41,684 nt of DNA from an uncultured Eubacteriales bacterium (GTDB taxonomy: Bacteria > Bacillota > Clostridia > Lachnospirales > Lachnospiraceae). The stretch is taken from positions 1 to 41,684 of the forward strand of contig ONBN01000036.1 of the NCBI GenBank assembly GCA_900316115.1. The letters are read 5' to 3'. Positions 17,525 to 41,234 of this stretch are shown here, one piece after another; the stretch's first letter is position 1; every line of letters starts with the position of its first letter. The notes under the pieces were generated by a model that did not search any database, was not told the DNA's origin, and saw nothing but the letters and a program-made list of their open reading frames with translations. The translations under genes and the position numbers were made by a program.

Positions 17525-18340
17525 TCAAACAGGCTGAACAATTGTTATTGCTCGCCGAACCTGCTCTACTGACAATTTGGTAGTCCTTGAAATCTTATCA
17601 AGATCATGCTCGCCCTCTGACCATAAGTTCAGGGCTATATCCATTCTTGCCTTAATATCTGCGTCACCACGCTCTCTGTCTACAATTTTCTGCATTGTTT
17701 CACACATTTCAGCCACTCCTTTCGGTTCTTCTTTAAAATACCTGACTCTTTCTGCAATCTTAGGATTATGCATCTCATGATAATCTTTACAGTTAAAATC
17801 ATGCATCAGCCATCCAATTTCATCATTTCCTCTATAAGCGCCATTTACATAAACAATGTGTGCTTTGTCTCCAAACAATTTTCCTGTTTCCTGAACAGTT
17901 CTTTCTACTGTATATACCGGAAGACCTCCTTTCAAAACATCATTAGCTGTAATAAATATAATGTATGTCTCCGGCATTTCTACATATTTTTCTCCTGATG
18001 TGGTAAGCCTTGAATCAAATAATGCACTATTAAGTCTGGCACGTTCAGGAACTGCCCCACTATCATTCTGCTGCACTTCAATATCATATTGCTTTCCTGT
18101 GGCATCATTAGCATAAATATCAAGTCTCACAGACCGTCCAAACAAATTTCCTATTGTTACCTGTGTAACAGCTTTTGTCACAGATAAATCATTTCTCTTT
18201 AATATTATTTTTAGAAGTTCTTCTGTACATTCAAGATCACCTGAAAAGACCTGTGTCATAAAAGTATCATCCATTAATGTAAATTTATTAATGACATCCA
18301 TACGCTCCATATTCTTTTGTTCCAGATTTAACACTTGCAT
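17525..18340 (-). CDS. Rpn-family PD-(D/E)XK nuclease-like protein
   Basis: This 271-residue protein belongs to the Rpn / 'PD-(D/E)XK nuclease family transposase' group. The core motif is visible: aspartate in RLDIYANDATGKQ followed by the ExQ motif in YDIEVQQND. The preceding N-terminal block NKFTLMDDTFMTQVFSGDLE is typical of the Firmicutes branch, and YIIFITANDV closes the nuclease core. The C-terminal ~60 residues (MDIALNLWSEGEHDLDKISR) are helical and form the usual helix-turn-helix-like tail. AAGGTGAG precedes the ATG. Members are multicopy in Lachnospiraceae genomes. E. coli Rpn proteins promote RecA-independent recombination and cut DNA. I see no terminal inverted repeats or target duplication, so I do not call an insertion sequence. 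Confidence 0.8.
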   Translation of the reverse strand: MQVLNLEQKNMERMDVINKFTLMDDTFMTQVFSGDLECTEELLKIILKRNDLSVTKAVTQVTIGNLFGRSVRLDIYANDATGKQYDIEVQQNDSGAVPERARLNSALFDSRLTTSGEKYVEMPETYIIFITANDVLKGGLPVYTVERTVQETGKLFGDKAHIVYVNGAYRGNDEIGWLMHDFNCKDYHEMHNPKIAERVRYFKEEPKGVAEMCETMQKIVDRERGDADIKARMDIALNLWSEGEHDLDKISRTTKLSVEQVRRAITIVQPV

Positions 18341-18584: not shown

Positions 18585-19145
18585 TTATTCGTGCTCTTTC
18601 AGATACTGTGCACGGCCTTCTTCATAAAGGTTGTTGCCTTCGCAGTCGATGATGACTACAAGAGGCATATCCTCTACATAAAGCTTTCTGAGAGCCTCTG
18701 CGCCAAGATCCTCATATGCGATCAGTTCTGCTTTCTTGATACATCTGGAAAGCAGTGCACCTGCGCCACCGATAGCTCCGAAATAAACACCTGAGTATTT
18801 CTTCATCGCTTCCACAACCTCTGGAAGGCGGGCACCTTTTCCGATCATTCCTCTTGCACCAACAGACATCATAGTAGGTGCATAAGCATCCATACGTCCG
18901 CTGGTTGTGGGGCCTGCAGATCCGATCACTTTTCCTGGTTTTGCAGGGGTAGGTCCAACATAATAAATGGTGGCATCTGTAGGATCAAATGGGATCTTTT
19001 CTCCCTTTGCCAGAGCCTCACACATTCTTTTGTGTCCTGCATCCCTGGATGTATAAATGGTTCCTGTAAGCAGTACCTGATCTCCTGCATGAAGTGTTTT
19101 TGCCAGCTCCTCAGTAAGAGGCAGTGTAATATGTCTTCTCTCCAT
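18585..19145 (-). CDS. fumB: Class I fumarate hydratase, beta (C-terminal) subunit
   Basis: This 186-residue protein is the beta subunit of the two-subunit, oxygen-sensitive [4Fe-4S] class I fumarase/tartrate dehydratase family. It interconverts malate and fumarate together with the alpha subunit encoded immediately upstream. Diagnostic blocks are DQVLLTGTIYTSRDAGHKRM near the N-terminus, GSAGPTTSGRMDAYAP, and GARGMIGKG. Its ATG directly follows the alpha subunit's stop with no spacer, so translation is coupled. Tartrate dehydratase (TtdB) is the main alternative; the neighbouring fumarate reductase and malate dehydrogenase make fumarase far more likely. It is the last gene of the hdr-flx-frd-fum operon. 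The symbol denotes the beta subunit, not E. coli FumB. Confidence 0.9.
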   Translation of the reverse strand: MERRHITLPLTEELAKTLHAGDQVLLTGTIYTSRDAGHKRMCEALAKGEKIPFDPTDATIYYVGPTPAKPGKVIGSAGPTTSGRMDAYAPTMMSVGARGMIGKGARLPEVVEAMKKYSGVYFGAIGGAGALLSRCIKKAELIAYEDLGAEALRKLYVEDMPLVVIIDCEGNNLYEEGRAQYLKEHE

Positions 19146-19988
19146 TTAAATCACCTCCGTTTTATGACGGGTCACATGGCAGTTAATATTTACTGCACAA
19201 GGCATTCCGGCAATATGAGTAGGCATTGTCTCAATGTTCAGTCCAATGGCTGTAGTCTTTCCGCCAAAGCCCTGTGGTCCGATTCCCAGCTTGTTGACCT
19301 TTTCCAGCATTTCTTTTTCAAGGTCTGCATAGAATGGATCCGGATTCTCAGAATCGATAGGACGCATCAGTGCTTTTTTTGCAAGAAGTGCACATTTATC
19401 AAAAGTACCACCAATACCTACACCAACAACCATAGGCGGACACGGATTAGGGCCTGCAGTCTCTACTGCTTCCAGGATGAAATCCTTGATCCCCTGAAGT
19501 CCTGCTGAAGGCTTGAACATACGGATCATACTCATGTTCTCGCTTCCAAAACCTTTAGGGCCTACAGTGATCTTAATATTTTCACCAGGTACGATCTCTG
19601 TGTAAAGCATAGCCGGTGTATTGTCTCCTGTATTTCCTCTGCGGACAGGATCCTTTACAACGGATTTTCTCAGATATCCATTGGTATAACCTCTACGGAC
19701 ACCCTCATCAACTGCCTCACGAAGATCTCCTCCTGTGATATGTACGTCCTGACCGATTTCCAGGAACACACATGCCATTCCTGTATCCTGGCAGATCGGC
19801 ACACATTCACTGTCAGCGATCTCGTAATTCTGGATGATGTCATCCAGAACGCCTTTTGCGATCTCTCCGTCTTCACATGCACGGCAATTCTTGATCGCAC
19901 ACTTTACGTCTTCCGGAAGATGCTCATTTGCCTGGATGCAAAGCTTTTCAACTACGTCTGTGATCTGGCTTGCTAAAATCTCACGCAT
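19146..19988 (-). CDS. fumA: Class I fumarate hydratase, alpha (N-terminal) subunit
   Basis: This 280-residue alpha subunit holds the catalytic [4Fe-4S] cluster of class I fumarase. Cluster-ligand candidates are in [31 protein letters not shown] and the C-terminal [22 protein letters not shown] is a further family block. The ATG at 19988 has AGGAG 10 bases upstream; an in-frame GTG at 19997 would leave no room for the ribosome site. It lies 74 bp behind frdA and abuts the beta-subunit gene. Its place between malate dehydrogenase and fumarate reductase indicates it works in the reductive direction, dehydrating malate to fumarate for reduction to succinate. The symbol denotes the alpha subunit. 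Confidence 0.9.
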
Positions 19989-20062
19989 ACTACTCACTCT
20001 CCTGTTTTTTATTTATCGAAACTGCTCAGTACCCTTGTGGGATACTGCCTGCTGAATACTTA

Positions 20063-21685
20063 TTATTTATCAAAACTGTCAACAGTTCCTTCGTGTCTTG
20101 CATATTTTGGAAGAAGCAGCGGAGAAACGTCCTCAGAATGAAGTCCTGCTTTTTCCAGTTCTTCTGCATAAGCCTGTACATGATCAAGGTTCATCTTTCC
20201 AAGAGTGATCTCTTTTACTCTTGCAGCTGCAGCCTTACCTGCATCACGGCCGAATACGATAACATCCAGAAGGGAATTGCCCATCAGACGGTTACGTCCA
20301 TGGATTCCTCCAACAGCCTCTCCTGCAACAAGCAGGTTCGGGATTACCTTTGTAAATCCGTCTCCGCCGATCTCCAGACCACCGTTCTGATAATGCAGGG
20401 TAGGATATACAAGGATTGGAAGCTTTCTCATATCGATTCCATAATTCATGTACATACGAAGCATTGCAGGAATTCTCTTTTCAATGGTTCCTGCACCACT
20501 CATTTCCTCGATCATTGGAGTATCCAGCCATACACCGGTTCCGATAGGAGTTTTTACTCCTTTTCCTCTTTCTGTACACTCACGGATAATGGATGCAGCA
20601 GCTACGTCACGGGTTTCCAGCGGATGCATGAATGCTTCACCATCTACGTTTACAAGCATTGCTCCAATAGAACGTACCTTCTCGGTAACAAGTGCACCAA
20701 AGATCTGTGAAGGATAAGCAACACCTGTAGGATGATACTGAATCGTATCCTGATACAGAAGCGGTGCTCCGGCACGATATCCAAGTACAAGTCCGTCAGC
20801 AGTTGCTCCATAATGGTTGGATGTAGGGAATCCCTGATAATGCATACGTCCTGCACCACCTGTAGCAATGATCACTGTCTTTGCACGGGCTACCATGTAA
20901 TCTCCTGTCTCCATGTTCAGAAGAACTGCACCTGCAACCTGTCCCTTATCGTCTTTGATCAGCTCTACTGCAGAAGTAAATTCTACAACCGGGATCTGAC
21001 GGTTGATCACCTCATCACGAAGGGTACGCATGATCTCTGCTCCTGAATAATCCTTGCAGGCATGCATTCTCTTTCTGGAAGTTCCGCCACCATGAGTTGT
21101 TACCATATTTCCTTCTGCATCTTTATCAAACATAACACCAAGATCATTCAGCCACTGAATTGCATCTGGTGCTTCCATAACCAGCTTTTTCAGAAGTTCC
21201 GGTCTTGCTGCAAAATGTCCGCCACCGAAAGCATCCAGATAATGCTGTACCGGTGAATCGTTTTCTTTATCTGCTGCCTGGATACCGCCCTCTGCCATCA
21301 TGGTATTGGCATCACCGATACGCAGCTTTGTAACGATCATAACCTTTGCACCGGCCTCATGAGCTTCAATGGCTGCAGAAGATCCTGCACCGCCGCCGCC
21401 GATCACCAGTACGTCTACGTCATAATCTACTTTGTCAAGATCTACTTTATCCTTCAGCAGACGGCTGTTGGAATGAAGAAGATGTGTCAGCTCCTTGGGA
21501 GCCTTCTGTCCTTTATTTGGTCCGATCTTAATCTCGGCAAATGCCTCTTCCCTGTAATCCGGATGAAAAGCCTTCAAAAGAGTGTCCTTCTCTTCAGCTG
21601 TCATTCTTCTAGGCTCCATGCCAATTCGTGAAGGTCTTGTTGCCTCCACTTTTTTCACGGATTCCATCATTTCTGGTGTAAACAT
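20063..21685 (-). CDS. frdA: Soluble fumarate reductase flavoprotein subunit (FrdA/TfrA-like)
   Basis: This 540-residue flavoprotein of the fumarate reductase/succinate dehydrogenase family has a non-standard ~85-residue N-terminal extension before the FAD dinucleotide fold (DVLVIGGGGAGSS, 91-103). Active-site blocks are present: HPTG (318-321), ETRDVAAASI with R359, HYQNGG with H431, and NRLMGNSLLD with R466. The histidine that binds FAD covalently in membrane FrdA/SdhA is replaced by asparagine (GDANTMMAEGG, N127), so FAD should be non-covalent. The C-terminus stops ~70 residues after the FAD domain, without the long helical domain of quinol-linked enzymes. AAGGAGG precedes the ATG, 12 bp behind frdB. 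No membrane anchor gene is present. It probably reduces fumarate in the cytosol with electrons from FrdB. L-aspartate oxidase is the main alternative and does not fit the neighbours. Confidence 0.88.
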   Translation of the reverse strand: MFTPEMMESVKKVEATRPSRIGMEPRRMTAEEKDTLLKAFHPDYREEAFAEIKIGPNKGQKAPKELTHLLHSNSRLLKDKVDLDKVDYDVDVLVIGGGGAGSSAAIEAHEAGAKVMIVTKLRIGDANTMMAEGGIQAADKENDSPVQHYLDAFGGGHFAARPELLKKLVMEAPDAIQWLNDLGVMFDKDAEGNMVTTHGGGTSRKRMHACKDYSGAEIMRTLRDEVINRQIPVVEFTSAVELIKDDKGQVAGAVLLNMETGDYMVARAKTVIIATGGAGRMHYQGFPTSNHYGATADGLVLGYRAGAPLLYQDTIQYHPTGVAYPSQIFGALVTEKVRSIGAMLVNVDGEAFMHPLETRDVAAASIIRECTERGKGVKTPIGTGVWLDTPMIEEMSGAGTIEKRIPAMLRMYMNYGIDMRKLPILVYPTLHYQNGGLEIGGDGFTKVIPNLLVAGEAVGGIHGRNRLMGNSLLDVIVFGRDAGKAAAARVKEITLGKMNLDHVQAYAEELEKAGLHSEDVSPLLLPKYARHEGTVDSFDK

Positions 21686-21697
21686 GGCTTCTCCTCC

Positions 21698-22372
21698 TTA
21701 TTTCTCAATCTCTCTATGGTTGTAAAGTTCTTCCATTTCCGTGATAGGCTTCTGCATGATCTGCTCGATCAGCTCGTCATATGCTCCCTCATGGATCTCT
21801 TCTACACGTTTAGCCAGATGCTCACTCTTTGGTGCGATATACTTTCCAGTAAGACGTCTTGCCAGAAGGCCAACCATCGGGTGGGAAATCTCTGCAGGGC
21901 AGCGTACTGTACAGCAGCCGCATGCGATACAGTCAAAGGATTCCTCTGCACATTTTTCAAATTCTCCACGCTGTGCATAAGCGATATACTGCATAACATT
22001 CAGATTCTGTGTACATGCTTTTGTGCAGGCATTACATCCGATACAGCTGTAGATCTCTGGATAAAGTTCCATCATGATACGCTGCTTTGGACGGATCTCA
22101 TCGATCTCATAAGTTCTCTTGTCTGTTGGGAAGAATGGGATGCTTGCCACATACATACCTTCCTGTACCTGTGTCTGACAGGCAAGACAGGTTTTCAGTT
22201 CATTTTTTCCTTTGATCCTGTACATGGTTGCACAGGCGCCGCAGAAACCATGACGGCATCCGCAGCCTCTTTTTAAGGTATAACCTGCATATTCCATAGC
22301 GGTCATGATCGTAAGATCAGCAGGTACTGTGTATTTTTTTCCAAAGAAATATACATTTACCATATTTTCCAT
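21698..22372 (-). CDS. frdB: Fumarate reductase iron-sulfur subunit (FrdB, HdrC-like C-terminus)
   Basis: This 224-residue electron-transfer subunit has an N-terminal [2Fe-2S] ferredoxin fold (C37, C39, C44, C47, then C62 and C65 as ligand candidates). A C-terminal domain holds two four-cysteine motifs: C110-C113-C116-C120 (CIGCNACTKAC) and C138-C141-C144-C148 (CIACGCCTVRC). Classical FrdB has one [2Fe-2S], one [4Fe-4S] and one [3Fe-4S] cluster; two complete [4Fe-4S] motifs instead resemble HdrC and the middle part of methanogen TfrB. The TfrB CCG domain is not fused here but is encoded separately by hdrB. I chose the ATG at 22372 (AAGGA upstream) because the ferredoxin domain starts there. 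A 128-bp spacer separates it from flxA, and frdA follows by 12 bp. Confidence 0.86.
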   Translation of the reverse strand: MENMVNVYFFGKKYTVPADLTIMTAMEYAGYTLKRGCGCRHGFCGACATMYRIKGKNELKTCLACQTQVQEGMYVASIPFFPTDKRTYEIDEIRPKQRIMMELYPEIYSCIGCNACTKACTQNLNVMQYIAYAQRGEFEKCAEESFDCIACGCCTVRCPAEISHPMVGLLARRLTGKYIAPKSEHLAKRVEEIHEGAYDELIEQIMQKPITEMEELYNHREIEK

Positions 22373-22445
22373 GTTATTTGATCCTTTCTTGTAGTAGGTA
22401 ATCGCAGTGTTAAGCTCGATTCCGCTTTGCTTCATCTCGCTGTTT

Positions 22446-22459
22446 TCGTGCAAGCACGA
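22446..22459 (-). promoter_or_regulatory. Small hairpin in the flxA-frdB spacer
   Basis: TCGTGC-AA-GCACGA is a 6-bp perfect inverted repeat in the only sizeable gap (128 bp) inside the hdr-flx-frd-fum gene train. It has no T-run. It may mark an mRNA processing point or simply the join between the flx-hdr and frd-fum modules. Confidence 0.3.
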
Positions 22460-22500
22460 CACAGCTCATGTCTGTTCCTGTGTGCACTGCTCATTGCTTA

Positions 22501-23355
22501 TCAATACTCATCAGGTAACTCATCAATCTCATCCAGTCGGAAGACCGGTCCGTCCTTGCACACATATTTGGAACCAATATTGCAGCGTCCGCACTTACCG
22601 ATTCCGCATTTCATACGAAGTTCCAGTGTGGTATAAACCTGTGATCTTGAAAAGCCCAGTTCTTCCAGTCCCTGAAGAACAAACTTGATCATGATCGGCG
22701 GTCCGCACACCAATGCAACTTTATTTGTATCAAATCCGATTTCTTTCAGATAGCTTGGAACAAAGCCTACATGTCCGTCCCAGCCCTCCTGCTCACGGTC
22801 AATGGTAAGATATACATTTACATCTTTCGCTTTCATCCATACATTCTGGATCTCTTTCAGCTTAACCAGATCATCTGCGGAACGGGAACCGTACAGAATA
22901 TCCACAGTTCCATAATCCTCACGATTGTCCAGCACATAATTGATTACAGAACGAAGAGGTGCCAGACCGATACCTCCGGCGATAAACAGAAGATTCTTTC
23001 CTTTCAGCTTATCCTCTACCGGAAAATGATTTCCATAAGGCCCACGCACTGTGATCTCATCCCCAACCTGCAAGCTGTGCAGATAAGAAGTCAGCTCTCC
23101 GCATCTTTTAATACTAAATTCCTGATATTCTTTATTCGTAGGGGAAGATGTAATGGAAAACATTCCTTCACTGACTCCAGGTGCGCAAAGCATTGCACAC
23201 TGTCCAGGCATATGCTCAAAAAGCTTTCCTCCATCCGGTGCATTTACACAAAAGGTTTTTACATCCGGAGTTTCCTCATTAATGCTGGTGATAACTCCTA
23301 CCTTTGGGATCAGAGTATCCAGTTTGTAGTTTTTATGGCAGGTACATTCACTCAT
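22501..23355 (-). CDS. flxA: FlxA-like NAD(P)H:acceptor oxidoreductase (FAD, [2Fe-2S])
   Basis: This 284-residue protein of the ferredoxin-NADP reductase superfamily resembles FlxA, AsrB and PyrK. The FAD-binding beta barrel is followed by IKRCGELTSYLHSLQVGDEI, the NAD(P)-binding half begins LFIAGGIGLAPLRSVI, and GPPIMIKFVLQGLEELG is the later NAD-domain block. A C-terminal four-cysteine motif at C250, C255, C258 and C266 fits a PyrK-type [2Fe-2S] cluster. In the known FlxABCD-HdrABC complex this subunit is the NADH entry point. Its ATG overlaps the stop of flxB (ATGA), so synthesis is coupled. Here it should take electrons from NADH and pass them through FlxB/FlxC/FlxD to HdrA. The cofactor preference (NADH over NADPH) is inferred from the family. 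Confidence 0.87.
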   Translation of the reverse strand: MSECTCHKNYKLDTLIPKVGVITSINEETPDVKTFCVNAPDGGKLFEHMPGQCAMLCAPGVSEGMFSITSSPTNKEYQEFSIKRCGELTSYLHSLQVGDEITVRGPYGNHFPVEDKLKGKNLLFIAGGIGLAPLRSVINYVLDNREDYGTVDILYGSRSADDLVKLKEIQNVWMKAKDVNVYLTIDREQEGWDGHVGFVPSYLKEIGFDTNKVALVCGPPIMIKFVLQGLEELGFSRSQVYTTLELRMKCGIGKCGRCNIGSKYVCKDGPVFRLDEIDELPDEY

Positions 23356-24395
23356 GCTTTTTCTCCTCCCTGCTTTTCAAAGGCTTTGATCACCTTTACA
23401 ATATTTAATGCTTCCGGACATTTCTCTACGCAGCGTCCGCATCCTACACAGGAATACATGCCGTCGTTATTTGCCGGGAAATAAACCAGCTTATGCATAA
23501 ATCTCTGACGGAATCTCTGCAGCTGTGTTGTACGGTTATTACCGCCGGCCATCAGCGTGAAATCAGAATACATGCAGGAATCCCAGCAGCGATAACGCTT
23601 TACGCCGTGGCCTGTATCATAATCTTTAATGTCATAACACTGGCAGGTAGGACATACAAAAGTACAGGTACCACATGCCAGACATGGTTTATAAAGCTCG
23701 TTCCATACAGGAGAATTGAATCTTTCTTCTGTAGCATCTCCATTCCATCCTTCCAGGGAAAGATGTGTATACGGAAGCTTTTCGATAATGGAACGGATGG
23801 TTTCTTTTTCCTTTGAAACAGCCTCTTCATCTGCTGCATCTGCATCCTGAAGAAGTTCTTTTACGCTGTCAGTAAGAGCATTTCCTTTTTCTGTAAGAGT
23901 TTTCCAGAAAAGATCCTCACCGATCATCCATACAGCCACATCAGCTGTCGGCTCTGCTGCATCTGTTCCGAAGATCTTGCAGAAGCAGGACTCTTCCGGC
24001 TCATGACATGCCATGGCAACGATAGTTCCGTGCTCTCTTCTTGCAGCATAGAAAGTATCTACAGGCTCTGTAAGAAATACTTTATCAAGAACCTCTACAC
24101 CTTTCACATCACAGGCTTTCATTCCAAATACTACAAATGGATGCTCTCTTAATGCTTCCGGCTCTACGGACAGCTTTTTGCCGTCACGTACACAGGTATA
24201 TAAGGTTTCACTCTGTGGGAAAAATGCATCTTTTCCGGATTTTACGGTTTTTAAGGTTGTAAGGTCAACATCTACATCTTCTGTCCACAAAGCAAAATTT
24301 GTCTGCTCTGCCTTTTTTACAGGAAGGATCAGATCCTGTTTTTCTGAAATCATCTGGAATAATGCCTTCAGATTTTCTTTTTTTATCTTGTACAT
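23352..24395 (-). CDS. flxB: FlxB-like 4Fe-4S dicluster protein
   Basis: This 347-residue iron-sulfur protein resembles FlxB, AsrA (anaerobic sulfite reductase subunit A) and the beta subunit of sulfhydrogenases. The N-terminal ~215 residues have no cysteine motifs beyond an isolated CHEPEESCFC. The C-terminal part holds two ferredoxin motifs, CLACGTCTFVCPTCQCYD and CVGCGRCVEKCPEAL. This fits two [4Fe-4S] clusters wiring the FAD subunit to the rest of the complex. The gene starts 4 bp behind flxC and overlaps flxA. In sulfite and sulfur reductases the same pair of proteins (AsrA/AsrB) feeds electrons from NADH, but no catalytic AsrC-type subunit is present here. Confidence 0.85.
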   Translation of the reverse strand: MYKIKKENLKALFQMISEKQDLILPVKKAEQTNFALWTEDVDVDLTTLKTVKSGKDAFFPQSETLYTCVRDGKKLSVEPEALREHPFVVFGMKACDVKGVEVLDKVFLTEPVDTFYAARREHGTIVAMACHEPEESCFCKIFGTDAAEPTADVAVWMIGEDLFWKTLTEKGNALTDSVKELLQDADAADEEAVSKEKETIRSIIEKLPYTHLSLEGWNGDATEERFNSPVWNELYKPCLACGTCTFVCPTCQCYDIKDYDTGHGVKRYRCWDSCMYSDFTLMAGGNNRTTQLQRFRQRFMHKLVYFPANNDGMYSCVGCGRCVEKCPEALNIVKVIKAFEKQGGEKA

Positions 24396-24398
24396 ACA

Positions 24399-25373
24399 TT
24401 ATCCCCTTTCTGCCACAATGCCAGGCTCCACATCATCAAATGTAAAGCTTGTAAGCGGGCCTTTTGATTCAGCATCTGCGCCTGCCTGATATTCCCCATA
24501 GAACTGGTCGATATCTTTGATGAATTTACGGTTGAAAAGATGAAGCGGAATACCCTGGGGGCACACACGGCTGCACTCTCCACAGTCTGTACATCTTCCT
24601 GCTACATGGAATGCACGGATGATGTGGAACATCTTTTCTTCAAAATCATCAACATTGGCTTTCTGGGCGCTGTCAAATTTGGTACTGTCAAAAACACATC
24701 TGCGGCAGCTGCATGCAGGACAGGCATTCCGGCAGGCATTGCAGCGGATACATTTGCTCAGTTCTTTCTGGAAAAATTCAAATCTTTCCTTTGGAGACAT
24801 TGCTTCGATCTGTTCTACTTCTGCAAAACGGTCAGCATCCTTTGTATCCTTGGACTCGCCGATGATCTCATCATAGATCATATGCTCTTTGCCCTTACAT
24901 ACATGGCATCTTTCCAGCATTGCATCTTTATAGGCAGCGGTTTTATTTCCGTAAATTGTTTCTATTTCAAGGTTCTCACACTCATCTGTGATCTCTGCCC
25001 CAGTAATCTTCTGGATTCCCTTGATTCCCATTTTGCGAAGCTTTTCCACATCCAGCTTGCCTTTGCAGCCTACACCGATAATATAGGCTTTTTCACGGTC
25101 TACCCTGTGTTCTTTGATCAGCTGGTTAAAGCTGTATGTATCACACGGTTTCAGACAGACAAGGGTTTTGCCCTCCAGCTTGGAAGCTTCGATCATCATC
25201 TTGCTTAAGTTTGCTCCGCAAAAGCCGTTGTAAACAAATTCATCCAGGCTTTCCGGTGTTTCAAAATATGCTGCTTCAGGATTGTAAGGCAGGTCTCCGG
25301 CTCTCCAGCCAAGAACACGGGCTACCGTTTTATCTGCCAGCAGTTCTTTTGCACGGCTAATCAGTTCCTGCAT
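24399..25373 (-). CDS. flxC: FlxC-like FrhB/4Fe-4S protein
   Basis: This 324-residue protein has an N-terminal segment resembling the coenzyme F420 hydrogenase/dehydrogenase beta (FrhB) domain (FCGANLSKMMIEASKLEGKT, LKPCDTYSFNQLIKE, IIGVGCKGKLDVEKLRKMGI). A four-cysteine cluster region begins at CHVCKG. The C-terminal ferredoxin motifs are CIRCNACRNACPACSCRRC and CTDCGECSRVCPQGIPLHLF. It matches FlxC of FlxABCD-HdrABC loci in order and architecture. It overlaps the end of flxD by 13 bp. F420 is not expected in this organism, so the FrhB-like part probably holds a flavin or only structural cysteines; this is inference. Its role is electron transfer between FlxB and FlxD/HdrA. Confidence 0.82.
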   Translation of the reverse strand: MQELISRAKELLADKTVARVLGWRAGDLPYNPEAAYFETPESLDEFVYNGFCGANLSKMMIEASKLEGKTLVCLKPCDTYSFNQLIKEHRVDREKAYIIGVGCKGKLDVEKLRKMGIKGIQKITGAEITDECENLEIETIYGNKTAAYKDAMLERCHVCKGKEHMIYDEIIGESKDTKDADRFAEVEQIEAMSPKERFEFFQKELSKCIRCNACRNACPACSCRRCVFDSTKFDSAQKANVDDFEEKMFHIIRAFHVAGRCTDCGECSRVCPQGIPLHLFNRKFIKDIDQFYGEYQAGADAESKGPLTSFTFDDVEPGIVAERG

Positions 25374-25804
25374 CTTATATCCTCCAATCTTACATTCTTA
25401 CCAAGAGAATGGATCTTTTCCACAAACTCATTCATGGTCTGGGAGAATTTAACACCTTCTGCTGCAGATACCCATTCCACACGGGTACGTCCGTTTTCCA
25501 CGCCAATATAGTCAAGCATGGAGAACAGAAGTGTCATCCTTCTTCTTGCATAATAGTTTCCGGTTGTATAATGGCAGTCTCCCGGGTGGCATCCACAAAG
25601 GATCACTCCGTCTGCCCCTCTTTCAAAAGCACGGAGGATAAACATTGGATTCACACGGCAGGAACATGGAACACGGATGATCTTTACATCTGCCGGATAA
25701 ACCAGACGGCTGCTTCCTGCCAGGTCTGCACCTGCATAACTGCACCAGTTGCAGCAGAACGCTACGATTTTAGGCCTGAATTCTTCTTTTGCTTCTATCG
25801 ACAT
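25361..25804 (-). CDS. flxD: FlxD/MvhD-like [2Fe-2S] adaptor of HdrA
   Basis: This 147-residue protein is of the MvhD/FlxD family, which links an electron-input module to HdrA. The conserved cysteine blocks are AFCCNWCSYAGADLAG, RVPCSCRVNPMFILRAFERG and GVILCGCHPGDCHY, supporting one [2Fe-2S] cluster. I chose the ATG at 25804 because GGAGG lies 11 bases upstream and the family alignment starts there; in-frame codons further up would add 33 unconserved residues. Its start overlaps the stop of the hdrA reading frame by 10 bp, which shows that hdrA and flxD were selected as a coupled pair and that the intact hdrA frame is the one ending at 25795. In methanogens MvhD passes electrons to the bifurcating flavin of HdrA. 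Confidence 0.88.
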   Translation of the reverse strand: MSIEAKEEFRPKIVAFCCNWCSYAGADLAGSSRLVYPADVKIIRVPCSCRVNPMFILRAFERGADGVILCGCHPGDCHYTTGNYYARRRMTLLFSMLDYIGVENGRTRVEWVSAAEGVKFSQTMNEFVEKIHSLGKNVRLEDIRCRN

Positions 25805-26103
25805 ATTGCATCTACCTCCGCTATGATCTGTCTGTTGGAGAATCCCTGGAGATCCATTGCTCCGGACGGACAGGTAACTGTACATGCACCACAGCCCTGG
25901 CAAAGTGCGTTATTCACAACTGCCACACGCCTTGTCTCACGTACTCCATGGTCATTTACCTGTACATCCTCATAGGAGATCGCTCCATATGGGCATACAT
26001 TCATACACTGGGAACATCCGTTACATGCAAGAGGATCTGCTTTTGCTGTACATGGGTTTGTAGTCAGCTTGTTCCGGAATATCCTTTGGTCCCTGGCATA
26101 CAC
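25795..26103 (-). pseudogene. hdrA: C-terminal ferredoxin part of hdrA, out of frame with the rest
   Basis: These 102 codons encode the normal HdrA C-terminus: two ferredoxin motifs CNGCSQCMNVCPYGAI and CQGCGACTVTCPSGAM, then the ending GFSNRQIIAEVDAI. The authentic portion probably begins at KLTTNPCTAKADPLAC (about 26071 downwards); the residues before it are the N-terminal hdrA coding sequence read in another frame. No ribosome site precedes the ATG at 26103, so independent translation is unlikely. It overlaps flxD by 10 bp at its stop. With the N-terminal fragment it would make a full-length HdrA if about 60 missing bases (length 2 mod 3) were restored. Confidence 0.75.
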
Positions 26104-27727
26104 CGGACAGGAAAATACCTGCGGTTGGTGATTCTACAGGACGAAGCTTTGCATGTGCTTCTGTAAGGAAATTATTTGTATCAATACTTGCAGTAAGCAT
26201 GGTTGCGATCTTACGTACATCTTTGTTTGGCTCAATGGCAGCTGCAAGAACAACCATATCTGCCTCCATCAGGATCTGTTTGTTGTCCAGAAGATCTGAT
26301 GCCTGTACCATTAAAGTTCCATCCGGCTGAGGAATTACCTTTCCAACCTGGCCTTTAATGTAGTTTACTCCATACTCTTCTACGGCTCTCCGGTAAAACT
26401 CATCAAAGTTCTTTCCAGGAGTACGTACATCAATATAAAATACGGTTACATTTGTATCCGGGTATTTATCCCTGATCAGCATTGCATGCTTTGCAGTATA
26501 CATGCAGCAGATCTTGGAACAGTAGCTTTTTCCTCTGTTATCAGAGCAGCGGCTTCCCACACACTGTACAAACACAATGTTCTTTGGTGCTTTTCCATCG
26601 GAAAGGCGCTCCAGATGACCCTTTGTAGGTCCTGCTGCATTCATCAGACGCTCCAGTTCCAGGGATGTGATCACATCCTTGCTCTGGCTGTAAGCATATT
26701 CATCATATTTATCAAGCTTGATCACATCAAAACCGGTTGCCACAACAATGGCTCCGTATTTCTTTGTTATGATCTCGTCCTGCTGTTCATAATCAATGGC
26801 TCCTGCTGCACAGTTCTTAGCGCAGGCACCGCATTTACCGGTTTTGAACTTGATACAGTTCACACGGTCGATCACAGGTACATTAGGAATGGCCTGTGCA
26901 AAAGGAATATAGATAGCACTGCGGTTGTTCAGTCCACGGTTAAATTCATTCGGGATCTTCTTGGACGGACATTTCTGGGAACATACACCACAGCCTGTAC
27001 ACTTGCTCATATCTACGCTTCTGGCTTTTTTACGGATATCTACTGTAAAATCGCCTACAAAGCCGCTGACCTTCTCTACTTCACTGTATGTATAGATGTT
27101 GATCTTCTCATGAGCTGCTGCTTCTACCATCTTAGGGGTAAGGATACATGCGGAGCAGTCCAGGGTAGGGAAGGTTTTGTCCAGCTGGGACATTCTTCCA
27201 CCAATACTTGGAAGCTTTTCCACAATATCCACTTCGTATCCTGCATCTGCAATATCAAGTGCAGACTGGATACCGGCAATACCACCGCCGATCACCAGGG
27301 CTCTTTTTGTAACCTGGCTCTCTCCCGGCTGAAGAGGCGCATCCAGATTTACTTTTGCAATAGCTGCTCTTGCAAGGATCACAGCCTTCTTGGTTGCTTC
27401 CTCCATGTCTTTATGGATCCAGGAGCAGTGCTCACGGATATTTGCGATCTCTACCATGTATGGGTTCAGGCCGGCCTTTTCCGCAGCTTTACGGAAAGTA
27501 GCCTCATGCATACGTGGGGAACAGGAACATACTACAACTCCTGTAAGATGTTTCTCTTTGATGGCATTAATGATCTTGGACTGTCCGGCCTCTGAACACA
27601 TATACTGGTAATCTTCTGCATGAACAACACCAGGCTCCATTTTTGCCATTTCAACTACTTTTTTTACATCTACTGTGGCTGCGATATTGGTACCACAGTG
27701 ACATACAAATACACCTATTCTCTGCAC
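26021..27727 (-). CDS. hdrA: HdrA, flavin and first Fe-S part; truncated by frameshift
   Basis: This 568-residue reading frame (GTG start at 27727, AGGAGG 10 bases upstream) covers most of HdrA, the FAD subunit that performs electron bifurcation in heterodisulfide-reductase complexes. Visible parts are the N-terminal VFVCHCGTNIA block and CSCSPRMHEATF, the FAD fold at LVIGGGIAGIQSALD, the cysteine block TLDCSACILTPKM, an inserted ferredoxin domain (CTGCGVCSQKCP, CGACAKNCAAGAI) and the terminal block SGVCQGPKDIPE. After DIPE the normal helical linker is missing and the frame runs into ten-odd unrelated residues and a stop at 26021. The C-terminal ferredoxin domain follows in another frame. So hdrA is split near 26071 by a likely deletion or an assembly error. 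It starts 7 bp behind hdrC. Confidence 0.88.
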   Translation of the reverse strand: MQRIGVFVCHCGTNIAATVDVKKVVEMAKMEPGVVHAEDYQYMCSEAGQSKIINAIKEKHLTGVVVCSCSPRMHEATFRKAAEKAGLNPYMVEIANIREHCSWIHKDMEEATKKAVILARAAIAKVNLDAPLQPGESQVTKRALVIGGGIAGIQSALDIADAGYEVDIVEKLPSIGGRMSQLDKTFPTLDCSACILTPKMVEAAAHEKINIYTYSEVEKVSGFVGDFTVDIRKKARSVDMSKCTGCGVCSQKCPSKKIPNEFNRGLNNRSAIYIPFAQAIPNVPVIDRVNCIKFKTGKCGACAKNCAAGAIDYEQQDEIITKKYGAIVVATGFDVIKLDKYDEYAYSQSKDVITSLELERLMNAAGPTKGHLERLSDGKAPKNIVFVQCVGSRCSDNRGKSYCSKICCMYTAKHAMLIRDKYPDTNVTVFYIDVRTPGKNFDEFYRRAVEEYGVNYIKGQVGKVIPQPDGTLMVQASDLLDNKQILMEADMVVLAAAIEPNKDVRKIATMLTASIDTNNFLTEAHAKLRPVESPTAGIFLSGVCQGPKDIPEQADYKPMYSKSRSSCM

Positions 27728-27734
27728 CAGTCTC

Positions 27735-28139
27735 TCACCTCCTGTATCTTCTGAATGCACTGACTAACAGCTGCTGAGGCGTTTCATCATCGATCAGTTC
27801 CGGGATCTCATCTGCTTTCAGATAATTCTGTCCCTTTTCCCTGATCACGATCTGTCTTGCAGCATCGATCAGTTTTCCTGGTTTTACATCTCTTGGGCAA
27901 CGCTCCACACATGCAAAGCAGGAAAGACATTTCCACAGGGATTTTGACTGGGCAAGTGCCTCAATATCCCCATTCTGTACATAGGATACAAACTGATGCG
28001 GCTTGATATCCATCTCATTAAATGCCGGACAGGTTGCAGAGCATTTGCCGCATTTCATACATTTCAGAGGATTTACTCCTGAGATCTCTTTGATCCGTTC
28101 TGCAGCATTTGCAGTATTTCCATATGTATAAGCACTCAT
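27735..28139 (-). CDS. hdrC: HdrC, 4Fe-4S subunit of heterodisulfide-reductase-like complex
   Basis: This 134-residue protein has two four-cysteine ferredoxin motifs, CMKCGKCSATCPAF and CLSCFACVERCPRD, with the HdrC-typical FNEMDIKPHQFVSYVQNGD between them. HdrC carries electrons between the HdrA flavin and the HdrB active-site clusters. Its ATG overlaps the last base of the hdrB stop (TAATG) and it is followed 7 bp later by hdrA, the order hdrB-hdrC-hdrA. No fusion to HdrB is seen, unlike HdrD-type proteins. Confidence 0.9.
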   Translation of the reverse strand: MSAYTYGNTANAAERIKEISGVNPLKCMKCGKCSATCPAFNEMDIKPHQFVSYVQNGDIEALAQSKSLWKCLSCFACVERCPRDVKPGKLIDAARQIVIREKGQNYLKADEIPELIDDETPQQLLVSAFRRYRR

Positions 28140-28933
28140 TACTCTGCCACCTCCTCTTTCACGCCCAGCGCTTCAGCAAGAAGCTCTGTGAAATAGTATA
28201 CAGGAAGTTTTCCGTTTCCGTTCTTTTTCAGGTTATACATGCAAAGCGGACAGGCCGTGATCAGCATCTCTGCACCAAAACCTTCTGCACTGTCCATGAT
28301 CTTTTTACACATATTCTGTGCCATATCCTTTTCTTTCAGGGAAATATATCCACCGCAGCATTCATTACGGAAAGGATAGATCACCGGCTCACCGCCGATA
28401 GCACGGATAAAATCTTCTATAATGGAAGGATTTTCCGGATTATCAAATCCCAGTATTTTTCCAGGTCTTAACAAAAGGCACCCATAATAAGCACCTATTT
28501 TTCTGCCCTTTAACGGATTTACAACCTTTTCTTTGATCTTATCAAAGCCTACCCTGTCTCTTAATACCTCCAGGTAATGGAGAACGGTTGTTTCTCCTGC
28601 ATAGGGTGTTTCAAATTTCAGGTAATTGTTGGCTCTGGTGCGGATATCCTCCACATTTTGCATATCATCATTGACTCTTTTGATCACATGATGACAGGCG
28701 GAACAGACTGTTACCAGATCCTGGCCTTTTTCCCTGGCCTGCTCCAATGCACGGACAGAAGAAAGCTTTGTGGCAATTTCATCGCTTCCCAGCGGATAAA
28801 CACCGCCGCAGCACTGCCAGTCTTCGATTTCTTCCAGTTCAAATCCAAGCGCCTTGGCAGAAGCCCTGGCATAGGTGTCCAGGTCTTTTGCTTTGTTTTT
28901 CAGGGTACATCCCGGATAATAACTGTACTTCAT
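28139..28933 (-). CDS. hdrB: HdrB, CCG-domain subunit of heterodisulfide-reductase-like complex
   Basis: This 264-residue protein begins YSYYPGCTLKNKAKDLD and contains two CCG domains: the first with CCGGVYPLG and CSACHHVIKR, the second with CCGGYISLKEKDMA and ACPLCMYNLKKN. In methanogen HdrB these cysteines bind two non-cubane [4Fe-4S] clusters that cleave the CoM-S-S-CoB disulfide. Both full CCG motifs are kept here although the organism should lack coenzymes M and B, so the partner is either another disulfide or an electron-transfer role towards FrdB. It is the first gene of the long operon and has its own promoter 43 bp upstream. A generic 'CoB-CoM heterodisulfide reductase' label would mislead about the substrate. 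Confidence 0.9.
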   Translation of the reverse strand: MKYSYYPGCTLKNKAKDLDTYARASAKALGFELEEIEDWQCCGGVYPLGSDEIATKLSSVRALEQAREKGQDLVTVCSACHHVIKRVNDDMQNVEDIRTRANNYLKFETPYAGETTVLHYLEVLRDRVGFDKIKEKVVNPLKGRKIGAYYGCLLLRPGKILGFDNPENPSIIEDFIRAIGGEPVIYPFRNECCGGYISLKEKDMAQNMCKKIMDSAEGFGAEMLITACPLCMYNLKKNGNGKLPVYYFTELLAEALGVKEEVAE

Positions 28934-28975
28934 AATCCTGCTATCCTTTCTTTGTTTCTTAGCATTTTCTATCGT

Positions 28976-29004
28976 TTTATAGCAAATATATTTATATACA
29001 GCAA
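28976..29004 (-). promoter_or_regulatory. Promoter of the hdr-flx-frd-fum operon
   Basis: On the minus strand TTGCTG (29004-28999) and TATAAA (28981-28976) are separated by 17 bases. The predicted leader is about 35 nt. The spacer is an AT palindrome-like stretch. A Rex consensus is not obvious here, in contrast to the mdh promoter. Confidence 0.55.
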
Positions 29005-29075
29005 CCTTTTATCTTGTATTTCAGCTGCTGGTATATTCAGAAATTAATAGGAATCAACACGTTATTTTGTATTTT

Positions 29076-29200
29076 CAAGTCGAGCAGCTGCGAGACTTGG
29101 CGCGTGATTCTGGTCAGCGTAAGCTGACATATTCTTTACAGAATCACTGCGCATCCTCGCGGAGCGTTTATCTCAGTCGGAGATTGGAGACTGAGATAAA
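29076..29200. other. Multi-hairpin intergenic element between mdh and hdrB
   Basis: About 125 bp with little coding potential fold into a series of strong stems. CAAGTC/GACTTG (29076-29099) encloses GCAGCTGC. GCGCGTGATTCTG (29100-29112) pairs with CAGAATCAC-t-GCGC (29139-29152) and encloses an inner hairpin GTCAGC-GTAA-GCTGAC (29113-29128). TTTATCTCAGTC (29167-29178) pairs perfectly with GACTGAGATAAA (29189-29200). With the mdh terminator at 29231-29250 this makes a structured block of ~175 bp. It could be a dispersed palindromic repeat, a small RNA or an mRNA-processing region. I do not recognise a known Rfam family. Confidence 0.55.
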
Positions 29201-29230
29201 ATCAAATCAAAACTATTTTGGACATAATAG

Positions 29231-29250
29231 GGGAGCCGCAAGCGGCTCCC
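29231..29250 (-). terminator. GC-rich hairpin after mdh, likely terminator
   Basis: GGGAGCCG-CAAG-CGGCTCCC is a perfect 8-bp stem (9 bp if the loop is tightened) 15 bp past the mdh stop. On the minus strand it is followed by a T-rich but interrupted tract. Together with the separate hdrB promoter it suggests that mdh is its own transcript. Confidence 0.55.
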
Positions 29251-29265
29251 AATATATACGCAATT

Positions 29266-30213
29266 TTACAGATCGATCTGTGCAATAACATTTTTCAGGG
29301 CGTCAGCACTCTTTCTCAACTGTTCAATTTCATTCTTATTCATACGCATTGGTACTTTTCCCTGGATACCATTAGGTCCTACCAAGGTAAGTGTACTTAA
29401 GCATACGTCTTCAATACCATACTCTCCATGCATCATGGAAGAAACAGTGGTAATAGTATCAGATGCTGCAAGTACCAGATTGACCAGCTTGCATACAGTT
29501 ACAGATACAGCATAGAAAGTAGCCCCTTTCTTTGCAATGATCTGGCCACCGGACTTCTGGACATAATTCAGCATTGCCTCTTTGTCAATTGGCTGGATCT
29601 CTTTTCCAAGCGCTTTCATATTCTCATAATATTCATCTACACTTACACCTGAGATATAAGCGCCTGTCCACGGAATAAAGGAAGTATCCCCATGCTCACC
29701 GAATACATATGCATGGATATTTCCCTGTGCTACCTTGAAATGCTCAGAGATACCGCAGCGAAGACGTGCTGTATCCAGCAGCGTACCGGAACCGATCACC
29801 TGTTTCTCCGGAATACCGGAAATCTTGGTAAATACATAAGTCATAATATCTACCGGATTGCTTACGATAATGTAAATAGCATTAGGTGCTTCCTTTGCGA
29901 TCTTTGGAGCAATGTCTTTCATAATATTTACATTTGTCTGTGTAAGCTCGATCCTGGTCTGTCCTGGCTTTCTGGCAATCCCGGATGTGATGATTACAAT
30001 GTCAGAATCCTTAGCGTCCTCATAATCTCCTGCGATCATGGAAATCGGACTTCTAAAGCAGGTACCCTGAAGGATATCCATCACTTCGCCTTCTACCTTT
30101 TCCTTGTTAATATCGATCATAACGATTTCAGACGCAATCGCCTCACTTGCCAAAGTATAAGCGATGGTAGAACCTACGCTGCCTGCACCAATAATAGTAA
30201 TTTTGCTACTCAT
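29266..30213 (-). CDS. mdh: NAD-dependent malate dehydrogenase (LDH/MDH superfamily)
   Basis: This 315-residue enzyme has the nucleotide fold GAGSVGSTIAYTLAS and an aspartate at the end of strand 2 (MIDIN, D34) that selects NAD. The catalytic residues are R87, D147, R150 and H174 (HGDTSFIPW). The specificity residue, equivalent to LDH position 102, is arginine (R81 in GIARKPGQTR). Arginine there favours the extra carboxylate of oxaloacetate/malate, while lactate dehydrogenases have glutamine (QKPGETR). The call is therefore malate dehydrogenase, reducing oxaloacetate, although automatic pipelines may say L-lactate dehydrogenase. The start is the ATG at 30213 (GGAAGGAA upstream); 23 in-frame codons before it are leader. 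It lies directly upstream of the hdr-flx-frd-fum operon and has its own promoter and terminator. Confidence 0.83.
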   Translation of the reverse strand: MSSKITIIGAGSVGSTIAYTLASEAIASEIVMIDINKEKVEGEVMDILQGTCFRSPISMIAGDYEDAKDSDIVIITSGIARKPGQTRIELTQTNVNIMKDIAPKIAKEAPNAIYIIVSNPVDIMTYVFTKISGIPEKQVIGSGTLLDTARLRCGISEHFKVAQGNIHAYVFGEHGDTSFIPWTGAYISGVSVDEYYENMKALGKEIQPIDKEAMLNYVQKSGGQIIAKKGATFYAVSVTVCKLVNLVLAASDTITTVSSMMHGEYGIEDVCLSTLTLVGPNGIQGKVPMRMNKNEIEQLRKSADALKNVIAQIDL

Positions 30214-32680: not shown

Positions 32681-32705
32681 TACCATCCTTTCTCATGTTA
32701 AAGGA

Positions 32706-40405: not shown

Positions 40406-40430
40406 ATGATCCCGCATAATGCAGGATCAT
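40406..40430 (-). terminator. Terminator of the glycyl-radical enzyme operon
   Basis: On the minus strand ATGATCC-T-GCA pairs with TGC-G-GGATCAT around a tight loop and is followed by TTTTTC. The stop codon of the activase gene lies inside the first arm. Confidence 0.75.
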
Positions 40431-41218: not shown

Positions 41219-41234
41219 TCTGTTCTCCTGTTCC

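Follow-up and report, generated by a model that had tools for sequence, protein, structure and literature searches.

In methanogens, TfrAB is a soluble thiol:fumarate reductase tied to an HdrB-like part, and TfrB holds this CCG part within one chain. FlxABCD-HdrABC of Desulfovibrio was reportedly treated by Ramos in 2015, and Koendjbiharie and van Kranenburg are said to have proposed, in a 2019 preprint, a bifurcating Flx-Hdr/fumarate reductase for Pseudoclostridium thermosuccinogenes. A paper on the latter bacterium (PMC7282089, BMC Microbiol 2020; here and below, papers with PMC numbers are cited for the available parts of their text) lists a ‘succinate operon’ composed of a fumarate hydratase, Flx-Hdr (seven locus tags) and a fumarate reductase (two tags), and credits the coupling proposal to a 2019 preprint. 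The bifurcating Flx-Hdr-Frd hypothesis is thus not new, being already in print for P. thermosuccinogenes. In Wolinella succinogenes, succinate oxidation by SdhABE was unmeasurable and CoM/CoB thiol activity was absent, according to the available part of PMC2680327.

Among the major metabolites of the gut is succinate, and at issue is how quinone-less fermenters reduce fumarate and whether energy is saved in the process. We analysed a stretch of 41,684 nucleotides, referred to as a whole as the window, which carries a related gene cluster that probably lets a gut bacterium, a relative of Blautia glucerasea, make succinate and save energy together. In the literature within our reach, outside which most subscription papers lay, we found no description of such a system for Lachnospiraceae or Blautia.

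Gene content of the locus and the break in hdrA

Among the open reading frames of the window, the genes follow the order hdrB-hdrC-hdrA-flxDCBA-frdB-frdA-fumAB, on the minus strand throughout and with overlaps or short gaps between neighbours, and the gene families assigned by profile scans are consistent with the named genes. The gene set, common direction, order and spacing claimed in the preliminary description are therefore all present. The features are as follows.

29266..30213, minus strand: mdh, malate dehydrogenase of the LDH family, located upstream of the operon
29231..29250, minus strand: hairpin 3′ of mdh, possible terminator
28139..28933, minus strand: hdrB, 264 aa; two CCG domains, ten cysteines of two non-cubane clusters
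27735..28139, minus strand: hdrC, 134 aa; two [4Fe-4S] sites
26021..27760, minus strand: principal frame of hdrA, shortened in the window to 579 aa; carries the FAD and N-terminal cluster domains
26072..26073, minus strand: hdrA deletion junction; 56 bp missing relative to locus L062, frame shifted
25795..26103, minus strand: C-terminal ferredoxin domain of hdrA, displaced into a separate frame, 102 aa; two [4Fe-4S]
25361..25804, minus strand: flxD (MvhD/FlpD family), about 147 aa
24399..25373, minus strand: flxC, 324 aa; dicluster ferredoxin protein
23352..24395, minus strand: flxB, 347 aa; sulfhydrogenase-beta-like Fe-S protein
22501..23355, minus strand: flxA, 284 aa; FAD/NAD(P)-binding reductase with a DHODB-type [2Fe-2S] domain
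21698..22372, minus strand: frdB, about 224 aa (frame open to 22462); [2Fe-2S] and two [4Fe-4S], with the [3Fe-4S] pattern and CCG domain absent
20063..21685, minus strand: frdA, 540 aa; fumarate-reductase flavoprotein with an N-terminal extension of about 88 residues, Asn127 replacing the FAD-linking His
19146..19997, minus strand: fumA, class I fumarase alpha
18585..19145, minus strand: fumB, class I fumarase beta

Judging from homology, the true starts are probably 22372 for frdB, 25804 for flxD and 30213 for mdh, and a longer TTG frame of flxD reaching 25903 is probably unused.

flxA–D and hdrA–C lie together in one cluster, but hdrA is split there. Its frame ends after 579 aa, the C-terminal two-[4Fe-4S] domain is found in another frame (25795–26103), and 56 bp are absent at about 26072/26073 in comparison with genome G190; this deletion was overlooked in the preliminary description. 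An intact HdrA with both ferredoxin domains is not found in the window, and the window's own genome yielded no second HdrA at E<=1e-50. Among 60 genomes of the genus, 14 others carry HdrA, and 13 of these have an open frame of 664–687 aa, the fourteenth (G159) having its HdrA pieces on two contigs. The frame is open in G190 and G154, and in G098 HdrA is likewise split. Because the frame is uninterrupted in 13/13 of the other genus copies fetched, we ruled out that HdrA naturally comes in two pieces in this genus; the 56-bp deletion is either a mutation or a misassembly. In the relative L062, the intact HdrA aligns end to end with the methanogen HdrA 5odc_A, across residues 14–670.

The mdh gene, on the same strand, lies upstream of the cluster, as previously described, but it may not share the operon transcript: it is followed by a hairpin lacking a clear T run and is separated from hdrB by 332 bp, so it may form a transcript of its own, and we rejected it as a certain member of the operon. 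Although the best-scoring models for its product are L-lactate dehydrogenases, the specificity-determining position is occupied in 52/52 motif hits (from 108 loci, some genomes being counted twice) by Arg, which we take to mark the malate type in enzymes of the LDH family.

Cofactor sites, membrane anchor and quinone genes

The cofactor sites of the fumarate reductase and its Hdr neighbours are strictly conserved. Asn127 occupies the FAD-linking His column of FrdA, located by alignment to 7d6v_A, and together with six active-site residues is kept in 67/67 aligned sequences. In FrdB, 4 + 8 cluster cysteines are present in 65/65 sequences, with a second [4Fe-4S] pattern instead of [3Fe-4S]; the ten cysteines of HdrB and the eight of HdrC are invariant in 45/45 and 55/55 aligned sequences, respectively. 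In profile scans, neither HdrB nor FrdB passed a curated family cut-off, and FrdB contained no CCG domain. FrdA scored 334 bits against the TfrA model (cut-off 718) and FrdB 38.6 bits against the TfrB model (cut-off 385), the C-terminus of which matched HdrB instead; with both scores below the cut-offs and FrdB lacking a CCG domain, membership in the Tfr family was rejected. Because HdrB scored 144.7 bits against the SdhE model NF042965, below its cut-off of 500, we say only that it works like SdhE, not that it is SdhE. Compared with the PDB, the predicted structure of FrdA (AlphaFold2, 28 rows, pLDDT 75.3) was most like flavoproteins of complex II, best 7d6v_A, and two helices were predicted in the N-terminal extension; the match is uninformative on the partner protein. 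For FrdB (27 rows), the mean pLDDT was 57.7.

Genome-wide counts were made in 27 of the 29 operon-bearing genomes of the family and genus samples (G164 and G194 were left out, as was the fragmentary G159). That no membrane anchor is encoded, as proposed earlier, was upheld: the scanned open reading frames at 17.5–31.9 kb of the window gave no anchor-family match, and Sdh_cyt (PF01127) exceeded its cut-off in 0/27 genomes, including that of the window, with five weak matches below it. This search detected the E. coli and B. subtilis positive controls, and the FrdC/FrdD families were outside it. Membership among the classical quinol:fumarate reductases (Qfr) was rejected on this Sdh_cyt count. 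For the menaquinone route, MenB was found in none of the 27 genomes, and MqnC in none over the cut-off (weak matches in 23), counts that argue against a quinol as the donor as far as gene content can indicate. RnfC exceeded the cut-off in 25/27 genomes (not in G007 and G044), and PEP carboxykinase was matched in all 27, in 24 of them at E<1e-190.

Linkage of frdAB with flx-hdr and the HdrB lineage

How constant is this association? In the family sample of 150 genomes, HdrA was present in 16/16 FrdA-bearing genomes, and two genomes carried HdrA without FrdA. The complete set was found in 25 of the 28 loci fetched from the family and genus, the remaining three ending at contig edges; in 51/51 of those named loci, out of 80, whose upstream stretch reaches 9 kb or more; and in 37/38 loci of the class sample with at least 8.5 kb upstream, the 38th having a different gene order. 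These samples overlap in genomes, and their counts are not additive. The cluster is a fixed unit within its family. Outside the family, the link loosens: in the phylum sample, 19/39 FrdA loci had no hdr gene in the fetched stretch (4 of the 19 have <3.5 kb upstream). When 17 genomes behind such loci were tested, HdrA (E<=1e-40) and HdrB (E<=1e-10) were both missing from four (G504, G279, G588 and G275); four others carried a generic HdrB inside a fetched Flx-Hdr cluster, and one other had no recognisable HdrB. A universal linkage was therefore rejected, and FrdAB can use another donor, given the four genomes that lack both proteins. In four further loci of the phylum sample, frdBA is accompanied by hdrC-hdrB alone, without Flx or HdrA, an arrangement suggesting that FrdAB has HdrBC for its direct partner. 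Thus, the co-occurrence of frdAB with flx-hdr, which the preliminary description proposed to look for, is near-total within the family, among the named loci and in the class sample, and loose in the phylum sample; separation of the two, which it regarded as speaking against the model, was seen in part, outside the family and class samples, whereas inside them the linkage holds.

HdrB follows FrdAB, with one exception. In the HdrB tree, from which no row was removed for length, a branch of length 1.0 and support 100/100 splits 59 FrdAB-linked HdrBs from nine others, none of the latter being from Desulfovibrio, and genomes G460 and G508 carry both kinds. The labels ‘trans’ and ‘generic’ were assigned after gene order and HdrB identity were known, the tree itself being independent of them. 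The exception, L131_1, is one of the nine and is encoded in an FrdAB locus together with another HdrB, one of the linked kind that falls on a long, unsure branch. The SdhE model failed as a divider of the two kinds, being the best model in 8/11 linked and 3/8 generic HdrBs, from scans that covered 11 of the 59 linked and 8 of the 9 other sequences. A few alignment columns also differ between the kinds, for example Thr10/Ser10, Pro47/Ala47 and Val83/Arg83 (56 rows against 8, with L131_0, L131_1, L137_0 and L230_0 left out beforehand), differences on which we base no conclusion.

A possible route of electrons to fumarate, and comparison with known systems

We propose that the intact operon, as found in neighbouring Blautia genomes, probably encodes a soluble electron-bifurcating NADH:ferredoxin/fumarate oxidoreductase. 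The computed basis of this proposal is the gene set, its linkage, the cofactor motifs, the co-segregation of HdrB with FrdAB, and the absence of anchor and menaquinone genes over the cut-offs; complex formation, direction and bifurcation are what we infer. FlxA would accept hydride from NADH, and FlxB/C and FlxD would relay the electrons to HdrA, the flavin of which would split each pair between ferredoxin and HdrC/HdrB, one electron apiece. From there, electrons would pass through FrdB to the FAD of FrdA, where fumarate would be reduced. HdrB would act as a docking relay rather than a disulfide reductase, the role of SdhE in E-type SdhABE. Fumarate would come from PEP carboxykinase, malate dehydrogenase and fumarase, and Rnf would reoxidise ferredoxin. 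The net reaction would be 2 NADH + fumarate + 2 Fd(ox) -> 2 NAD+ + succinate + 2 Fd(red), with an energy, on E0′ values, of about −33 to −53 kJ/mol for ferredoxin at −500 to −400 mV. Soluble, NADH-driven bifurcation through HdrBC, as put forward in the preliminary description, stands as the best-supported reading in view of linkage, motifs and the HdrB tree; the idea itself is not new, and the hdr-less half of the phylum loci (19/39) limits its reach.

Could the same genes work otherwise? A non-bifurcating enzyme, in which Flx-Hdr-Frd passes NADH electrons to fumarate, wastes the potential drop and leaves ferredoxin uninvolved, seems unlikely to us. The ATP yield of B. luti was reckoned with an NADH-dependent fumarate reductase (PMC12773636), Hdr/flox had ‘never been studied biochemically’ as of 2014 (PMC4215793), and the HdrA ferredoxin domain is severed in the window; yet HdrA of L062 retains the whole methanogen layout, the gap of about 350 mV between NADH and fumarate suffices to pay for ferredoxin, and HdrA would be superfluous in a plain NADH enzyme. 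A thiol shuttle like that of methanogen Tfr, with Flx-Hdr reducing a small disulfide and the dithiol feeding FrdAB, is quite improbable: HdrB does retain all ten non-cubane-cluster cysteines, and Tfr does link thiols to fumarate, but FrdB has no CCG domain and falls far short of the TfrB cut-off, the available part of PMC2680327 gives no CoM-SH/CoB-SH activity for SdhABE, and the four loci with HdrBC beside FrdAB in the absence of Flx and HdrA are more easily read as direct contact.

We give slightly less credence still to a free-standing FrdAB that draws on ferredoxin, flavodoxin or another donor while flx-hdr is merely co-regulated. Against it stand the tracking of FrdAB by HdrB and the near-complete linkage among family, named and class loci, despite the four genomes with FrdAB but neither HdrA nor HdrB, and despite a 1,144-aa gene that adjoins frdB in L104 (G504) and L109 (G588), its product in L104 being a biotin/pyruvate-carboxylase-type protein. 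Reverse operation, in which succinate and reduced ferredoxin would yield NADH by electron confurcation, is very improbable. It is suggested by locus L105 (phylum family f59), where frdBA lies beside HdrA-like genes and a putative malic enzyme, 2-oxoacid:ferredoxin oxidoreductase and succinyl-CoA synthetase (labels by eye), as in an oxidative pathway; however, the FAD-linking His is replaced by Asn in every FrdA aligned, enzymes whose FAD is not covalently bound no longer oxidised succinate (PMC2680327, citing other work), and PEP carboxykinase, mdh and fumarase favour the supply of fumarate.

If the bifurcating complex operates as proposed, every succinate would yield reduced ferredoxin for Rnf, and ATP balances that assume a plain NADH enzyme, such as that for B. 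luti (PMC12773636), would be too low in operon-carrying species. Fumarate would join the acceptors of HdrA-based bifurcation, to which E-type fumarate reductases would be tied through the common HdrB/SdhE part. Taking all of this together, we find it an even call whether HdrB/HdrC are a transferable adaptor of the fumarate reductase rather than of Flx-Hdr, FrdA-FrdB-HdrB being a membrane-free E-type (SdhABE-like) enzyme that, by lineage, is plugged into Flx-HdrA or multi-HdrA complexes or occurs with HdrBC alone, and that provides quinone-less gut Lachnospiraceae with a bifurcating succinate route worth about 0.56 additional ATP per succinate via Rnf (at 2 H+/2e− and 3.6 H+/ATP, values from PMC12773636). 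Isolates with the intact operon exist, and the complex is testable now. In B. luti extracts, viologen-driven fumarate reduction was observed and frdAB was highly transcribed (PMC12773636), although this may not be the present operon; the viologen assay is silent on the natural electron donor.

The Blautia operon is a further member of the bifurcating Flx-Hdr-fumarate reductase systems already proposed. By gene content it resembles the succinate operon of P. thermosuccinogenes, which likewise unites fumarase, flx-hdr and a two-gene fumarate reductase under the same proposed ferredoxin coupling and was about 4-fold up at CO2 limitation, not significantly for every subunit (PMC7282089); that organism is, however, a different bacterium and a thermophile, and by locus tags its fumarase lies at the opposite end of the set. 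In Desulfovibrio (PMC4215793), the NADH/Hdr gene set and proposed bifurcation are alike, but the proposed partner is a heterodisulfide such as DsrC, whereas here it is FrdAB with its own HdrB lineage. In tubeworm symbionts (PMC6315080), fumarate reductase genes are also interspersed with flx-hdr and a complex was proposed, although these are gammaproteobacteria with an rTCA cycle and a Tfr-type reductase (tfrAB) accompanied by kor genes. Moorella MetFV-HdrABC-MvhD (PMC5861303) similarly combines HdrABC with NADH and a non-disulfide acceptor, in that case methylene-tetrahydrofolate. Methanogen TfrAB carries in TfrB the CCG part that FrdB lacks. With the E-type 8-methylmenaquinol:fumarate reductase SdhABE of W. 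succinogenes (PMC2680327), the Blautia operon shares the absent FAD-linking His, the second [4Fe-4S] replacing [3Fe-4S] and the ten-cysteine HdrB-like subunit; the Wolinella enzyme differs in being membrane-bound, exported, quinol-driven and encoded by sdhABE alone.

The operon and its damaged hdrA

We found that the operon is real and conserved, and that the gene set and the one-direction order with overlaps or short gaps given in the preliminary description are correct: the intergenic gaps range from -26 to +119 bp (the damaged hdrA excepted), and profile searches back each name. The main piece of HdrA scores 717 bits against profile NF040770, the flxD product is of the FlpD/MvhD family, FlxA carries NAD- and FAD-binding domains and a DHODB [2Fe-2S] domain, FlxB is sulfhydrogenase-beta-like, HdrB has a CCG domain, and fumA and fumB encode class I fumarase alpha and beta. 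All operon genes save hdrA have open frames, and no gene lies between frdA and fumA. The mdh gene is parted from the operon by a hairpin and 332 bp; its product scores as an L-lactate dehydrogenase, and all 52 motif hits obtained from 108 loci have, at the specificity position, the Arg that we take to mark the malate type.

18,585-28,933, minus strand: hdrB, hdrC, hdrA, flxD, flxC, flxB, flxA, frdB, frdA, fumA, fumB
17525-18340: Rpn/PD-(D/E)XK family nuclease gene, directly downstream of fumB
31931-32686, same strand as pepT and upstream of it: protein of 251 aa that contains hydrophobic stretches and matches neither Pfam nor NCBIfam models at the thresholds applied
10275-12740: predicted protein of 821 aa combining methyltransferase domains, in two stretches, with an AstE/AspA-type domain, adjoining an Opp-type transporter
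40427-41606, near the edge of the window: radical SAM gene next to that of a short protein with a glycine-radical domain

Although hdrA is present, it is not intact, which the preliminary description had missed. Compared with G190, a genus relative with a whole hdrA, 56 bp are missing at about 26072/26073, and because this gap shifts the frame, the C-terminal ferredoxin domain (25795-26103) lies in a different frame from the main piece. HdrA is present in 15 of 60 genus genomes: that of the window, 13 in which it is open over 664-687 aa, so that an intact hdrA is the rule, and G159, in which it lies in pieces on two contigs. The 56-bp deletion with its frameshift (26021-26103) is absent from all 13 relatives having a whole gene, and the operon is broken, at hdrA, in the window's own assembly. 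In a genome of another genus (G098, locus L049), HdrA is split too, near residue 200. The gap may be a real deletion or an assembly error; a real deletion may have cost the strain its coupled enzyme.

Linkage of FrdAB with Flx-Hdr

In the family sample of 150 genomes, each of a different genus, FrdA of the operon kind (68-100% identity; next matches at most 42%) occurs in 16, and HdrA in 18, including all 16; the other two carry HdrA of 53-55%. Family and genus together gave 28 fetched stretches. The set is complete in 25 of them, and contig ends interrupt the remaining three; fumAB come next in 21 of the 25, and mdh lies nearby in 19. Among the named loci (the best 80 of at least 582; 72-99% identity), the set is complete in 51 of 51 with at least 9 kb upstream; with shorter flanks, 4 are complete and 25 do not have all of it visible. 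FrdA was found at E<=1e-120 in 54 of 391 genomes of the class, and 53 stretches were fetched from 52 of these. The usual-order set is present in 37 of the 38 that reach 8.5 kb upstream, the 38th (L291) having frdBA first, then hdrB-hdrC-hdrA-flxD-flxC-flxB; 3 of 15 with shorter upstream sequence are complete. These samples, genus included, overlap and their counts are not additive.

In the four relatives inspected, the gene after frdA is antiporter-like (L151:4116-5285; L154:11702-12973; L167:11624-12787; L200:11636-12796). It is a candidate C4-dicarboxylate exporter, and the L151 copy matches PF06826 and the AspT/YidE type TIGR01625 in a profile scan.

The phylum sample of 398 genomes yielded 39 further FrdA loci (53-64% identity) in 38 genomes. 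Their neighbours are a full Flx-Hdr in 1, HdrA-like genes of the multi-HdrA type in 11, HdrBCA-FlxDC downstream in 4 and HdrBC alone in 4; 19 have no hdr gene in the stretch fetched, which extends at most 5 kb downstream and, in L119, L123, L126 and L140, less than 3.5 kb upstream. Across 17 genomes of this group (all but G484), HdrA lies elsewhere in 13; in the other 4, no HdrA was found at E<=1e-40 and no HdrB at E<=1e-10. Separate clusters fetched from 12 of the 13 (not G283) comprise seven flx-hdr sets with the FrdAB-linked HdrB kind (one cut before flxA), four with the other kind and one with no recognisable HdrB. At L118, frdBA adjoins fumAB and a malic enzyme gene, and at L104 a pyruvate-carboxylase-type gene. 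Because of the hdr-less loci and genomes and these varied neighbours, we regard FrdAB as a module that could draw on more than one donor. The predicted co-occurrence of frdAB with flx-hdr thus holds in the family, named and class samples (16/16, 51/51, 37/38) and fails in part of the phylum sample, where alone the regular separation that would speak against the proposed bifurcating enzyme was partly seen.

At L105:7323-15651 (phylum family f59), frdBA is joined to HdrC-HdrB-HdrA and to a protein of 1,092 aa in which ferredoxin and pyridine-nucleotide-redox domains abound; nothing in that region matches flxA or flxB, and the arrangement is possibly another bifurcating form. In two FrdAB loci (L142:3978-4964; L141:3965-4954), a ferredoxin-like protein adjoins frdA. 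A profile scan of the L142 copy shows a domain of the cytochrome b561 type (PF01292), and this protein is a possible membrane anchor or donor.

HdrB lineage and metabolic setting

In a tree of 68 HdrBs, a branch 1.0 long and supported at 100/100 sets 59 linked sequences (those of FrdAB loci and of the seven separate flx-hdr clusters) apart from the other 9. Two genomes (G460, G508) hold both kinds, the linked one beside frdBA and the other in a separate Flx-Hdr set. One exception, L131_1, falls among the 9, yet its FrdAB locus also has a linked-kind HdrB; placement is unsure for L137, L230 and both L131 rows, all of which are long. Because the HdrB kinds part with FrdAB linkage, and because HdrBC alone stands beside frdBA in four loci, the simplest reading of the sequences would be that HdrB contacts FrdB.

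Profile searches of 27 operon-bearing genomes found MenB in none, and neither MqnC (weak matches in 23) nor Sdh_cyt (weak in 5) over cut-off in any, the last in agreement with the claimed absence of a membrane anchor for the fumarate reductase. RnfC exceeded its cut-off in 25 (not G007 or G044). There is therefore no sign in these genomes of a quinol for the classical enzyme, and most have a ferredoxin sink. PEPCK matched in all 27, in 24 at E<1e-190. With E0' of +33 mV for fumarate, -320 mV for NAD and -400 to -500 mV for ferredoxin, we calculate that the NADH-fumarate branch yields 68 kJ/mol and ferredoxin costs 15-35, a net of -53 to -33 kJ/mol. About 0.56 ATP per succinate would be gained via Rnf by our arithmetic, with the ratios assumed in PMC12773636, namely 2 H+ for every 2 e- passing through Rnf and 3.6 H+ for each ATP.

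Comparison with known systems

An operon of this kind, with Flx-Hdr and fumarate reductase, has been proposed in print before. Meyer, in 2014, reportedly connected fumarate reduction with Hdr-Flox and Rnf in D. alaskensis. The fumarate reductase of that organism is held to use menaquinol (PMC4215793), a Kor-Tfr-Flx-Hdr complex is proposed for tubeworm symbionts (PMC6315080), and the same gene set is named in Pseudoclostridium thermosuccinogenes, where a 2019 preprint proposing electron bifurcation is cited and induction was about 4-fold at low CO2, not significant for all subunits (PMC7282089). For B. luti, a viologen assay showing fumarate reductase activity and abundant frdAB transcript are described and an NADH-dependent fumarate reductase is modelled, and neither 'heterodisulfide' nor 'Hdr' appears in the main text (PMC12773636). 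No description of the operon in Lachnospiraceae was found in the literature searched, which mostly excludes subscription journals. The docking model seems plausible from sequence and partly new.

Six FrdA residues that we take to belong to the active site (His318, Thr320, Glu335, Arg338, His431, Arg466) are kept in 67 of 67 sequences, and the column that presumably holds the FAD-linking His, set by alignment to 7d6v_A, is Asn127 in all 67. All 65 FrdB sequences have the [2Fe-2S] cysteines 69, 74, 77 and 95, together with two complete [4Fe-4S] sets; ten cysteines of HdrB are kept in 45 of 45, and eight of HdrC in 55 of 55. The best NCBIfam match of HdrB is SdhE (144.7 bits; HdrB model, 138.6), far below both cut-offs. 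The SdhE model was rejected as a mark of FrdAB-linked HdrBs, the match being no cleaner for these than for others.

According to PMC2680327, the E-type SdhABE of Wolinella lacks the FAD-His, contains a second [4Fe-4S] and includes SdhE, a subunit with 10 cysteines that is related to HdrB. The enzyme reduces fumarate and oxidises neither succinate, even in a variant given the His, nor CoM/CoB thiols. FrdAB-HdrB shares with SdhABE the missing FAD-His, the second [4Fe-4S] and the ten-cysteine HdrB/SdhE subunit. Without classing it as SdhABE, we suggest by analogy that the FrdAB-HdrB of the operon would work like SdhABE.
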